43,196 bases of DNA from positions 1-43,196 of the IMG/VR virus record IMGVR_UViG_3300044998_001089; one strand, written 5' to 3'. The notes beneath the pieces are model-generated. The model did not search any database. It had not been told where the DNA came from and saw nothing but the letters and a program-made list of their open reading frames with translations. The DNA is from a virus. Shown piece by piece: positions 14,006 to 17,902 of the stretch (position 1 is its first letter; each line of letters opens with the position of its first letter). The position numbers and the translations under genes were made by a program.

Positions 14006-15541
14006 ATGGAACATGAGAGAGGATGGGGCGCGATGGGCGAGTTGACGGTGAATGGGGCGCTGGAGCAGCGGCGGCGGCTGGCCGCAGGGCTGGGCCTCCA
14101 GTTCGACGGGGCGCGCGATGTGTTTGCGGCGGCGGGCTATGATGGGGATATTGCGTTCGAGCGCTATCGGGCGCGCTATGAGCGGCAGGATATCGCGGCG
14201 CGCGTGGTGGATGCGCCGGCGGCGGAGACGTGGCGGCGGGCGCCGGTGATCGTGGACGGGGTGACGGAGGGGGATGGCCGCGACGATACGGAGTTTGCGC
14301 AGGCGTGGGCGGAGTTTGCGTCCATTGAGGAGGTGGGCGACGAGCTGGAGGACCGGCGCACGGTGTGGCATTATCTGCGCCGGGTGGATGAGTTGGCGGG
14401 GATTGGCCGCTATGGGGTGCTGTTGGTGGGCATCAACGATGGGCTGCCGCTGGGCGAGCCGCTGGCGCCGGGGCGCGTGGCGGGGCCGGATGGCTATTTG
14501 TATCTGAGCGCGTTCGACGAGGGGGATGCGCAGCTGATGGAGTTGGAGAATGCGCCGGCGTCGCGCCGCTATGGGCTGCCGCTGCGCTATCGGTTGGGGC
14601 TGGGCACGAATTTGCAGGGGGACGCGATGCAGCCGCTGCCGGTGCACTGGTCGCGGGTGGTGCATGTGGCGGAGGGGTTGAAGGGGGATGAGATTTTTGG
14701 GACGCCGCGGCTGCGCCCGGTGTGGAATCGGCTGCTCGACCTGGAGAAGATCATGGCGGGGGCGGGCGAGGCGGCGTGGAAGCTGCTGTATAAGGGGCTG
14801 ATCCTGTCGACGCGGGACGGCTATCGGCTGGACACGACGGACGGGGAGACGGAGGAGAAGGTCGAGGAGTATATCCACGGGCTGCGGCGGTTTTTGCAGC
14901 TGGAGGGGATGGATGTGACGGTGGCCGGGGGCGAGGTGGTGGACCCCACGGGGCTGGTGAATCTGAATGTGGCGTTGATTGCGGCGGCGACGAACATCCC
15001 CCAGCGGCTGCTGTTGGGCAGCGAGCGGGGGGAGCTGGCGAGCAGCCAGGACGAGCAGGCGTGGGCGCGCTATGTGGCGGGGCGGCAGCGCAATTTTGCG
15101 GAGCCGATGATTCTGCGGCCGCTGATCAACCGGCTGGTGTACGCAGGGGTGCTGCCCAAGCCGGCGAGCGGGCGCTATGTGGTGGTGTGGCCGGAGGTGC
15201 GCGAGGCGGACGCGGCGACGGATGCGGCGGTGGCGCAGGCGTATGCGCAGGCGTTGGCGAGCGTGCTGCCGGGCAGCGGGCAGGCGATTGATGTGCGGGA
15301 GTTTGTGGCGGCGTTGGTGCGGCCGCTGGACAACCGCACGGCGGTGGTGGCGGCGGTGACGCCGGAGCCTGCGCTGCTGCCCGCGGGTGTGGGCGGGGAT
15401 GAGCCGGACGGGGACGCGCCAGACGATGCGCCGGATGATGAGCCGGGCGAAGAGGGAGAGGAGGGGATGGCGACGAATGTCGCCCCCTTTTGGGGCGGGG
15501 TCGAGCATGGGCGCTGGGACGGGGCGCGCTGGTATCCGTAG
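14006..15541 (+). CDS. Portal protein (DUF1073-like)
   Basis: 511 residues from the ATG at 14006; ATG 14033 has the better Shine-Dalgarno and is an alternative. The sequence shows the phage portal layout of the DUF1073 family: AARVVDAPAAETWRRAPVIV near the start, a GRYGVLLVGI strand, HWSRVVHVAEGL, the long stem helix LLDLEKIMAGAGEAAWKLLY, and IPQRLLLGSERGELASSQDEQAWARYV, the very typical crown/wing segment. The C-terminus is acidic. Portal forms the dodecameric ring at the capsid vertex for DNA entry and exit. It follows the large terminase and precedes the minor head protein, as in most siphoviruses. Confidence 0.85.
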   Translation: MEHERGWGAMGELTVNGALEQRRRLAAGLGLQFDGARDVFAAAGYDGDIAFERYRARYERQDIAARVVDAPAAETWRRAPVIVDGVTEGDGRDDTEFAQAWAEFASIEEVGDELEDRRTVWHYLRRVDELAGIGRYGVLLVGINDGLPLGEPLAPGRVAGPDGYLYLSAFDEGDAQLMELENAPASRRYGLPLRYRLGLGTNLQGDAMQPLPVHWSRVVHVAEGLKGDEIFGTPRLRPVWNRLLDLEKIMAGAGEAAWKLLYKGLILSTRDGYRLDTTDGETEEKVEEYIHGLRRFLQLEGMDVTVAGGEVVDPTGLVNLNVALIAAATNIPQRLLLGSERGELASSQDEQAWARYVAGRQRNFAEPMILRPLINRLVYAGVLPKPASGRYVVVWPEVREADAATDAAVAQAYAQALASVLPGSGQAIDVREFVAALVRPLDNRTAVVAAVTPEPALLPAGVGGDEPDGDAPDDAPDDEPGEEGEEGMATNVAPFWGGVEHGRWDGARWYP

Positions 15542-17453
15542 GCCGGCGGGGCGGGCGAACGCGGGCGCGCTGCCGGGGGTGCGGGATGGCGGGCTGGCCC
15601 GGCGCGAGTCGTTGGAGCGGACGTGGGCGGGGCGCGTGGCGGGGGCGTTGGCGAGGATGTTGGGGCGGATGCTGCCGCGAGCGGAGGCGGCGACGCTGAC
15701 GCGGGAGGCGTTGACGCCTGCGATGGTGATGGCGCGCTATCGGGCGGAGAGCGGGCCGCTGCACGCGGCGCTGGGGGGGATGTTGGAGGCGGCGGGGCTG
15801 TTGGGCGCGGCGGTGGGCCGGGCACAGATGGAGGCGGCGGGGGTGGTGATGTCGTCTGCGGGGTCGTCTGCGGGGTCGTCTGCGGGGTCGTCTGCGGGGT
15901 CGTCTGCGGGGTCGTCTGCGGGGTCGTCTGCGGGGTCGTCTGCGGGGTCGTCTGCGGGGCCGCGGGGGAATGTGGCGCGGGTGGTGGCGGTGGATTGGGA
16001 GATGGTGAACCAGGCGGTGCTGGATTGGGTGCGCGGGGGGAGCGGGGCGTTTGGCACGGGCTATGGGGATGTGTTGGCGCAGGCGTTGGCGCAGACGAGT
16101 GAGGCGGTGATCCGGGAGCAGCTGGCGTTGTGGATGGAGAGCGGGCTGCCGCTGGATGCGTTGGTGGATGCGCTGATGGGGACGGTCTTCAGCCGGGAGC
16201 GGGCGAATTTGATCGCGGTGACGGAGGTGACGCGGGCGTATGCGGAGGGGAACACGGCGGCCTGGCGGGCGACCGGGGTGATTGAACGGCGGGAGTGGCA
16301 GACGGCGAATGATGAGCTGGTGTGCCCGGTGTGCGGGCCGCTGCAGGGGCAGGTGCGCGGGCTGGAGGAGATGTTTGATGGGGGGCTGGGCGGCCCCCCG
16401 GCGCACCCGCGCTGCATTCTACCTGGTAATCATGTGGTGGTGCCCGGCTGGGTCGAAGCGGCAGCCAAGAGCGTCTACCGTGGACGGGCCGTTGAGATAC
16501 GTCTCGGTTCGGGGCGCAAGTTGACCGTCACCCCGAATCACCCGGTATTGACGGGGCGCGGTTGGGTGGCTGCGGGCGAGCTGGGCAAAGGCGACGATGT
16601 GCTTGGCTGCGTCGAGGCTGAGCGGGTAGCGGGTTTTGTGAACCCAGACGATGACCACATGCCAACCAAGATCGAGCAGGTATTTGTAGCGCTGCGGATG
16701 GCGGGCGCGGTGTCTGCCGGCGCGGTGCCAGTTGCCGCCGAAGATTTCCACGGCGATGGGCGGGGCATGGAGGGCGATGTCGAGGTTATAGGGACCGACC
16801 GCCTTTTGATGGCTCAACGGCAGACCGGCGTAGAAGAGCCAGTTGCCCAGTCGGCGCTCGGTGGGGTTGATGGCGGCGGGTTGGTCGGCGGCGGCGCGCT
16901 CGACGCCCGCGGCCTGGGCGCAGAGTTCGTCGAAGGGTACGGGGCGACCGCGCATTGTGGTGTGTGCGGCCGTGGTCTGGTGGGTGCGTTGGGCGTTGGT
17001 CATGCGCTGCCACTTGACGCGCTCGGCGTCGGACTGGCTGCGGGGGGGGATGCCGTGGCGCATGAGATTGCTGCGGAAGGCGTAGCGACCGATGCCCAGT
17101 TCGCGGGCGAGGGCGTTCTCGGATTCACCGGCGAGGTAGCGCGGGATGATGGCGGCGAAGCCGGGGATGTCCACGCGCTGGTGGCTGGCGCGGTTGACGT
17201 AGACGCCGGCACGTTGCAGGCGGCGGGTGACGGTCTGGGGGCTGACGCCCAAGTCATGCGCGAGTTTCTTGATCGGTTCGCCAGCCTGGTAACGGCGGAT
17301 GAGGTCGTCGAGGTTCGGGATTTCGAGTTTGCGGGTCATGTGTATGATCTCCAGGTGGGGCCATATCCCCTCTACTTTACGGAGGGGGTGATTACGCACA
17401 ACTGTCGGTGTTGGGTTGCGCCCGTGGTGGATGACCTGCCCACGGGCGCATAG
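15507..17453 (+). CDS. Minor head protein (Mu F/SPP1 gp7-like) interrupted by an intein
   Basis: The frame encodes a Mu gpF-like minor head protein: ANLIAVTEVTRAYAEGNTAA, a REWQTANDELVCPVCGPL segment and PPAHPRC. The conserved HPxCRC motif is split: HPR, then a 330-residue intein (16413-17402), then CRCWVAPV. After splicing the product would be about 318 residues and regain HPRCRCW. The family connects portal and capsid and takes part in head assembly. Residues 116-151 are nine SSAG repeats. The start is uncertain: ATG 15507 overlaps the portal gene by 35 bp, and GTG 15579 would avoid overlap. The intein carries an antisense gene. Confidence 0.82.
   Translation: MGAGTGRAGIRRPAGRANAGALPGVRDGGLARRESLERTWAGRVAGALARMLGRMLPRAEAATLTREALTPAMVMARYRAESGPLHAALGGMLEAAGLLGAAVGRAQMEAAGVVMSSAGSSAGSSAGSSAGSSAGSSAGSSAGSSAGSSAGPRGNVARVVAVDWEMVNQAVLDWVRGGSGAFGTGYGDVLAQALAQTSEAVIREQLALWMESGLPLDALVDALMGTVFSRERANLIAVTEVTRAYAEGNTAAWRATGVIERREWQTANDELVCPVCGPLQGQVRGLEEMFDGGLGGPPAHPRCILPGNHVVVPGWVEAAAKSVYRGRAVEIRLGSGRKLTVTPNHPVLTGRGWVAAGELGKGDDVLGCVEAERVAGFVNPDDDHMPTKIEQVFVALRMAGAVSAGAVPVAAEDFHGDGRGMEGDVEVIGTDRLLMAQRQTGVEEPVAQSALGGVDGGGLVGGGALDARGLGAEFVEGYGATAHCGVCGRGLVGALGVGHALPLDALGVGLAAGGDAVAHEIAAEGVATDAQFAGEGVLGFTGEVARDDGGEAGDVHALVAGAVDVDAGTLQAAGDGLGADAQVMREFLDRFASLVTADEVVEVRDFEFAGHVYDLQVGPYPLYFTEGVITHNCRCWVAPVVDDLPTGA
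15852..15959 (+). repeat. Nine tandem copies of a 12-bp coding repeat (Ser-Ser-Ala-Gly)
   Basis: TCGTCTGCGGGG is repeated nine times without a mismatch, encoding nine SSAG units in the minor head protein. A multiple of three keeps the frame when copy number changes. Perfect identity suggests recent slippage. It probably forms a flexible linker. Confidence 0.95.
16413..17402 (+). other. Intein in the minor head protein
   Basis: 330 codons beginning with Cys1 (CILPGN HVVVPGW) and ending with HN before the Cys+1 of the C-extein. Block A is the first segment. Block B is LTVTPNHPVLT with the TxxH residues, followed by GWVAAGELGKGDDV. At the C-terminal end, block F is GHVYDLQVGPYPLYFTEGV and block G is ITHN|C. 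These are the residues needed for Hint-type protein splicing. Roughly the middle 190 residues are an Ala/Gly/Val-rich filler with no in-frame LAGLIDADG or other nuclease motif. That DNA is the complement of the endonuclease gene on the minus strand. Confidence 0.9.
16419..17339 (-). CDS. Putative homing endonuclease encoded antisense within the intein
   Basis: 306 residues. GGAG lies nine bases before the ATG on the minus strand. Two helix-turn-helix-like segments (DDLIRRYQAGEPIKKLAHDL, then IPRYLAGESENALARELGI) are followed by a Vsr/EDxHD-like PD-(D/E)XK core. The visible core residues are E161 in NPTERRLG, D187 in GPYNLDIAL, E198 and H205 in IAVEIFGGNWH, then RYKYLLDLGWHVVIVWVH. This core is shared by very-short-patch repair nucleases and the EDxHD homing endonucleases. 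The composition is that of a normal protein, unlike antisense shadow frames here, which are Arg/Pro/His-rich. It would cut intein-less alleles and drive intein spread; activity is inferred. The last 50 residues overlap splicing blocks A and B and may be dispensable. Confidence 0.8.
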   Translation of the reverse strand: MTRKLEIPNLDDLIRRYQAGEPIKKLAHDLGVSPQTVTRRLQRAGVYVNRASHQRVDIPGFAAIIPRYLAGESENALARELGIGRYAFRSNLMRHGIPPRSQSDAERVKWQRMTNAQRTHQTTAAHTTMRGRPVPFDELCAQAAGVERAAADQPAAINPTERRLGNWLFYAGLPLSHQKAVGPYNLDIALHAPPIAVEIFGGNWHRAGRHRARHPQRYKYLLDLGWHVVIVWVHKTRYPLSLDAAKHIVAFAQLARSHPTAPRQYRVIRGDGQLAPRTETYLNGPSTVDALGCRFDPAGHHHMITR

Positions 17454-17767: not shown

Positions 17768-17806
17768 GCCCGATGGAAGTTGCTACCTTCCATCGGGCCG
17801 CTTTTT
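17768..17806 (+). terminator. Intrinsic terminator after the portal/minor head block
   Basis: A perfect 12-bp stem, GCCCGATGGAAG (17768-17779) with CTTCCATCGGGC (17787-17798), and a 7-nt loop. TTTTT follows at 17802-17806, three bases after the stem. It separates the packaging block from the XRE gene. Confidence 0.8.
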
Positions 17807-17862: not shown

Positions 17863-17902
17863 TCAAGACGGGGCTTGAAGGCTATCCCCGATGGCGTATA
17901 AT
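17863..17902 (+). promoter_or_regulatory. Promoter of the XRE gene with an inverted repeat at the -35
   Basis: TTGAAG (17875-17880), a 16-bp spacer and a consensus TATAAT (17897-17902). An inverted repeat TCAAG-N6-CTTGA (17863-17878) overlaps the -35 and could be an autoregulatory operator. Transcription would start near 17909, just before the AGGAGG of the XRE gene. Confidence 0.7.

Follow-up and report, generated by a model that had tools for sequence, protein, structure and literature searches.

Phage inteins with a predicted homing endonuclease gene on the complementary strand, in codon-aligned register

Large inteins of the canonical type, such as PI-SceI, PI-PfuI and PI-MtuI, contain an in-frame homing endonuclease of the LAGLIDADG or HNH class. 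In fractured genes, split inteins occur together with a free-standing gene for an EDxHD-type endonuclease, and I-Bth0305I is known as an intron endonuclease. The closest described case to the locus reported here is the ShiLan domain, which, like the Pacc40 insertion, is an HNH endonuclease hidden in a phage methylase on the same strand in a shifted frame; both lack splicing domains and are not inteins, and no Shine-Dalgarno sequence was found for them (PMC11855218). A capsid intein, near-identical in both phages, has been annotated in Snoke and LSPA1, and an intein-free relative was noted (PMC6776784); an endonuclease is not mentioned in that report.

The DNA analysed in this study, termed the window, comprises 43,196 nucleotides of the viral record IMGVR_UViG_3300044998_001089. 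The features relevant here are given below, with z-scores from the resampling analysis described further on.

15387..17453, plus strand: open frame of a MuF-type minor head protein with the intein (PF04233, E 6.4e-10; head PHROGs)
16413..17402, plus strand: intein of 330 aa between HPR and CRC (PF14890 above cut-off; invariant residues; AlphaFold2 model with Foldseek match to the RecA mini-intein)
16419..17339, minus strand: antisense nuclease gene, 306 aa, with ATG at 17339-17337 and stop codon TAG at 16421-16419 (family and profile matches; pLDDT 87)
16530..16544, plus strand: intein block B, TPNHP, opposite the C-terminal nuclease motif YRVIRG; both strands constrained (z 49 sense, 31 antisense)
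16620..16865, minus strand: nuclease core, residues about 159-240, with E161, D187, E198 and H205 (MTES_1575; 3hrl and 3r3p; Foldseek match to Vsr)
16740..16760, plus strand: sense motif EDFHGDG with H113, invariant in alignment A2, opposite nuclease residues AVE (z 34 sense, 38 antisense)
16803..17273, plus strand: sense filler, residues 131-287, predicted to be disordered (pLDDT <50; sense conservation at the null level over most of it)
17058..17153, minus strand: second helix-turn-helix (HTH), nuclease residues 63-94 (profile match to the tandem HTH 2lvs, E 9e-9; model)
17211..17312, minus strand: first HTH, nuclease residues 10-43 (HTH_7 and HTH_23; helices in the model)
17334..17351, plus strand: intein block F, GHVYDL, carrying the nuclease start signals in reverse
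17349..17352, minus strand: Shine-Dalgarno sequence GGAG, 9 nt ahead of the nuclease ATG (sequence; conserved in most relatives)

The plus-strand frame 15387-17453 matched Phage_Mu_F and head-protein PHROGs. The start of the head gene is undetermined within this frame, GTG at 15579 being possible. A 12-base tandem repeat (tcgtctgcgggg) at 15850-15960 lies in frame in the head gene and gives rise to SSAG repeats in the N-extein. The profile of PHROG 15127, matched by 15387-17450, covers the intein; given that a head-protein profile spans it, this profile was probably built from unspliced precursors.

The original prediction, made from the sequence alone, was that a Hint-type intein splits the minor head gene in its HPxCRC motif. 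In agreement with this, the Pfam intein splicing domain PF14890 matched 16413-17402 with an E-value of 2.6e-10 and 40.7 bits (cut-off 35.8), the NCBIfam model intein_Cterm scored above and intein_Nterm slightly below its cut-off, and sequence matches were obtained to the Mtu RecA and Pho RadA inteins. With C1, TPNH at T40-H43, the HN/C junction at N330 and a +1 Cys, the sequence criteria for a class 1 Hint domain are fulfilled, and the exteins joined across the intein read AHPRCRCW, that is, an uninterrupted MuF motif (HPRCRC). The gene forms a single continuous frame and is not fractured into two open reading frames, so that the criterion for a split intein is not met. In an alignment of 40 relatives, C1, T40, H43 and N330 showed no variation, and PF14890 was matched at E 0.01 by 38 of the 40 family members. 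The AlphaFold model of the sense protein is confident at residues 1 to about 130 and 290-330, with a weaker stretch near residue 75, and disordered in between (pLDDT <50 over most of residues 131-287); Foldseek assigned it to mini-inteins including the Mtu RecA intein (E 6e-4), i.e. to the Hint fold. Between blocks B and F, the sense frame matched no family in the profile searches, and the proposed lack of an in-frame nuclease therefore stands. The middle is not filler throughout, as had been assumed: residues from about 78 to 130, including the near-invariant EDFHGDG, are conserved, and the filler is confined to about 131-287. The sense strand thus retains the splicing domain and a conserved segment around H113, the remainder being filler; splicing itself is inferred.

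A complete minus-strand frame with GGAG before its ATG had also been described, and both are present; the stop codon TAG is the reverse of the intein Leu3 codon CTA. Profile searches of both translations had been recommended as a check and, besides the PF14890 match, yielded for the minus-strand protein the resolvase-type HTH_7 above its cut-off (E 1.8e-7) and, for this protein alone, the nuclease family MTES_1575 under its cut-off (E 1.8e-6). A profile of the 43-sequence nuclease family matched the solved structures 3hrl (E 2e-4) and 3r3p (E 5e-4), the latter being the intron homing endonuclease I-Bth0305I. The AlphaFold model, with a mean pLDDT of 87, consists of helical HTH units followed by an alpha/beta core, and Foldseek retrieved the tandem HTH 2lvs, then 1vsr, 3hrl, 1cw0 and 3r3p. 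For the core, the Foldseek probability was 1.00 to 1vsr and 3hrl and 0.99 to 3r3p, with TM scores of 0.61-0.73 by target length; the E-values are weak (6e-3 to 4e-2) because the core alone aligns. The two HTH segments and the Vsr-like core anticipated from the bare letters are thereby backed by profile and model. The four core residues pointed out at that time are conserved: in 43 relatives, E161, Y184, N185, D187, V197, E198 and R217 are invariant or nearly so, D187 and E198 being invariant and E161 conserved in at least 90%, and in a 32-sequence set W204 and H205 are conserved, H205 without exception. In 3r3p, the closest homing endonuclease structure, Ala stands opposite D187 and H205 in the profile alignment, however, which counts against the proposed reading and leaves the assignment of these residues to an EDxHD active site tentative.

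The locus is not a lone oddity and belongs to a large family. A tblastn search of the minus-strand protein against annotated phages returned 119 records; among the matches listed, those in genes of named function fell on head-morphogenesis or MuF genes. About a dozen genera of phage hosts were seen, including Gordonia, Salmonella, Escherichia, Pseudomonas, Klebsiella, Vibrio, Acinetobacter, Edwardsiella, Cronobacter and Aggregatibacter, as well as Idiomarinaceae. From IMG/VR, 50 loci were obtained with the nuclease query and 20 with the sense intein, and a probe of splicing blocks A-B only found at least 590 relatives, the best 80 of which were kept; a scan of a genome collection gave one locus. 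Several of these searches brought up contigs that others had already retrieved, and the number of distinct full inteins is 130. All 167 surveyed loci combine a sense intein with the antisense nuclease in one register, the codon boundaries of the two strands falling together. This includes 80 of the 80 loci kept from the splicing-block probe, among which there was no nuclease-free intein that could have served as a control for the role of DFHGDG. All loci appear to share one origin, and the constant register therefore counts as a single event. Intein lengths cluster near 272, 325 and 370 aa, classes that appear to match one, two and three HTH units in the nuclease. In low-GC sequence, long antisense open reading frames are not expected. 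Low-GC members of the family exist, such as Aaphi23 with 42% GC across the intein, and the family range extends down to 39%; with relatives in about twelve host genera including these, the antisense frame is far beyond chance.

Two plasmids, one of Streptomyces platensis and plasmid III of Candidatus Promineifilum breve (Chloroflexota), also carry the intein with the antisense nuclease. On the latter, capsid and terminase genes are annotated, for which reason it is probably a phage-plasmid. Nuclease homologues in other contexts were sought and not substantiated: the readable full-length matches all lay in head genes or unannotated equivalents, matches in Bacillus covered the HTH only, and the Streptomyces plasmid match has the sense intein as well.

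GC-rich genes often have long antisense open reading frames, as seen in the list of frames around the window, and the minus-strand frame might accordingly be a mere shadow of a conserved, codon-aligned sense protein, without a product of its own. This was addressed by synonymous resampling of 55 dereplicated loci, in which the protein of one strand was fixed, its codons were resampled and the conservation of the other strand was compared with the resulting null. With the sense protein fixed, antisense conservation exceeded the null with z of 16-55 over the second HTH and the core, far above the level implied by the sense protein, in contrast to z of -0.1 for the N-extein treated in the same way. 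With the antisense protein fixed, sense conservation was strongly above the null at EDFHGDG (z 34) and in the core windows of the splicing blocks F/G, A and B (z 22-49). It stayed at the null level (z about 0-2) opposite the greater part of the second HTH and of the N-terminal half of the nuclease core. The z-scores carry no phylogenetic correction, for which the flat internal stretch and the extein serve as controls and only as a partial remedy. The second line of evidence comes from 12 independent close pairs, some of which are >99% identical and contribute little. Substitutions fell on sense position 3 in 63-66% of cases in the exteins and 70-90% in the outer intein blocks; in the intein middle, sense position 3 accounted for 27% and sense position 1, which is the wobble position of the antisense codons, for 56% (the shift between regions has a chi-square p of 2e-42). 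Both frames are thus conserved and under separate selection, as had been suggested for this one sequence. Given that the antisense frame in addition matches HTH and nuclease families, is predicted to fold with high confidence and persists at 39-45% GC, we consider a shadow frame to be practically ruled out.

Conversely, the nuclease gene might have been inserted backwards, with the sense frame reduced to a tolerated linker without an active intein, for which it speaks that the sense middle is mostly filler. Only loci with an open sense frame were counted as inteins, and the absence of sense stop codons is therefore not independent evidence, this constraint being satisfied down to 39% GC. However, the invariance of C1, T40, H43 and N330, the PF14890 match in 38 of 40 members, the predicted Hint fold and splicing blocks constrained beyond what the antisense protein requires render a tolerated linker highly improbable, and we retain the reading that the segment encodes both an intein and a nuclease.

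The two genes overlap over approximately 92-93% of the intein (window; short length class), because the nuclease starts opposite intein block F and its stop codon usually lies no more than about 60 nt from the first intein codon. Read in reverse, the codons of GHVY(D/N)L(Q/E) provide a Shine-Dalgarno sequence (GGAG or GAGGT) followed by ATG. A His precedes VY in 96 of 129 distinct inteins, encoded 81 times by CAT (reverse ATG) and 15 times by CAC (reverse GTG), compared with 95 CAT and 129 CAC for the His codons in the N-exteins of the same loci (Fisher p 1e-12). Motifs resembling a Shine-Dalgarno sequence were present in 98 of the 129. No ATG, GTG or TTG occurs at the block F His position in 29 loci; in 21 of these, ATG or GTG follows 1-3 codons on, typically opposite the His of FHGxVYNL, and in eight there is none nearby. 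In this second start arrangement, found in L104, L135 and about 20 other loci, the CAT of FHGxVYNL, and hence the nuclease ATG, is shifted inwards by two codons; in L104 and L135, the very position at which the other group starts is occupied by a stop codon. As a point against the proposed arrangement, a consistent antisense promoter was not found, with one promoter-like minus-strand site in the window and none in L015 or L002. Past the head gene of the window there are two sigma-70-like promoter matches, at 17866-17838 on the minus strand and 17875-17902 on the plus strand (0.1 expected by shuffling), of which only the former points back at the intein. A strong terminator-like hairpin with a T run at 17768-17798 separates the head gene from the plus-strand gene that follows.

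Intein-free homologues of the head gene had been proposed as a check and exist, being common in Salmonella phages: SETP7 and S4lw have an uninterrupted HPNCRS. Among the 335 records with some match to the joined flanks of ZCSE7, the 60 listed records of jersey-like Salmonella phages all match over 597-600 nt in one piece. As regards mobility, the inteins of the E. coli phage Snoke and the Salmonella phage ZCSE7 are 96.4% identical, compared with 65.7% over 900 nt upstream, and those of KpTDp1 (L013) and L084 are 97.5% identical with flanks of 83.3% and 62.0%. An intein at 96% identity between E. coli and Salmonella phages with a 66% upstream flank points to movement, and these comparisons show that transfer between phage lineages has affected the intein more than the gene around it. 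Not all members show recent transfer, the loci of a Gordonia trio resembling one another more closely in their flanks than in the intein. Between Salmonella phage vB_StyS-sam (L003) and L015, the distant flank is 99.2% identical and the 300 nt adjoining the intein only 89%, a pattern that looks like separate conversion events with co-converted flanks.

It remains conceivable that intein and nuclease are both real and that the latter is a regulator or acts elsewhere, e.g. in the exclusion of rival phages, with the intein spreading by ordinary recombination. There are no cleavage data for the empty site, the HTH units could have a regulatory function, and the Gordonia trio would fit such a role. 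We nevertheless regard it as unlikely, because nuclease-like residues are retained, similarity in the Snoke/ZCSE7 and L013/L084 pairs is far higher within the element than in the flanking DNA, and full-length relatives were found solely inside an intein of the same kind. Homing thus remains the preferred explanation, for which inteins with a disrupted nuclease and a conserved plus strand had been named beforehand as a refuting case. Such a state is met in four of 130 distinct inteins (L022, L028, L121 and L146), and at least 126 of the 130 have both readings intact. An automatic count of stop codons in the nuclease had given 28 exceptions, mostly profile ends extending past the natural stop or start, and the four were retained by eye; one of them, L146, is a 188-aa intein that has lost the HTH region. 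This looks like ordinary decay of a homing endonuclease and not like absent selection, and low-frequency loss of the nuclease is the outcome that a homing cycle would give.

We therefore propose, with a probability of roughly 0.88, that the locus is a mobile intein with its own homing endonuclease encoded in codon-aligned register on the complementary strand; that the protein splices, that the nuclease cuts the empty site and that it is translated from antisense RNA are inferences. The sense reading would yield a head protein with a Hint domain, the self-excision of which would restore HPxCRC, and the antisense reading would yield an endonuclease of HTH-HTH-(Vsr/EDxHD-like) architecture. As no nuclease can be recognised in the sense frame, mobility is most readily attributed to the antisense protein, again by inference. 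The most likely target of this protein is the stretch of conserved codons for HPxCRC in head genes that lack the intein, and repair of the cut site would copy the intein in. The endonuclease may be translated from an antisense transcript by means of the Shine-Dalgarno sequence and ATG opposite block F. It is also very likely that this applies to the large family as a whole, its members being mobile inteins in which a single DNA segment encodes a codon-aligned pair of splicing domain and homing endonuclease, with block F doubling as ribosome-binding site and start and block B as the C-terminal motif of the nuclease.

A separate gene on the opposite strand could allow mobility and splicing to be expressed independently while both remain locked to the same bases. 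The low number of broken nucleases, four in 130, suggests that overlap with the intein could be a way for a selfish gene to resist decay. Codon-aligned sense/antisense coding is the mode at issue in the Rodin-Ohno hypothesis. If our reading holds true, the family provides a clear example from nature of extended bidirectional coding in register, with conservation of both products. About 130 natural variants of such a long codon-aligned gene pair are available, and both products can be tested. Elements of this kind escape gene finders in which overlapping antisense frames are suppressed, given that the full nuclease was not called as a gene in the annotated records examined.

No description of an antisense endonuclease in an intein emerged from our literature search. 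A possible overlap concerns a 2025 bioRxiv preprint (10.1101/2025.01.02.630785), cited by the authors of the ShiLan study, which reportedly surveys the inteins of actinobacteriophages in PhagesDB, has "Non-Canonical Architecture" in its title and may include Gordonia members; at a guess, the chance that the Gordonia examples are already described there is roughly one in three. The individual parts are known, and it is their arrangement that is new as far as our checks reach. Canonical large inteins share with this family a Hint domain placed in a conserved motif, a nuclease in the same DNA, empty alleles and mobility; in contrast to them, the nuclease here is a separate gene on the opposite strand, outside the spliced-out protein, and overlaps the splicing blocks. 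Split-intein fractured genes and I-Bth0305I likewise link a nuclease of the Vsr/EDxHD type, in a gene of its own, to a splicing element, whereas here the intein forms one continuous frame that encloses the nuclease gene in reverse orientation. The capsid intein of Snoke and LSPA1 (PMC6776784) represents the sense half of a member of the family described here. As in the ShiLan domain and the Pacc40 insertion, a homing-type nuclease is hidden in another frame of an open insertion in a phage gene, but in the present family it occupies the opposite strand, is codon-aligned with the sense frame and is accompanied by the splicing blocks of an intein.
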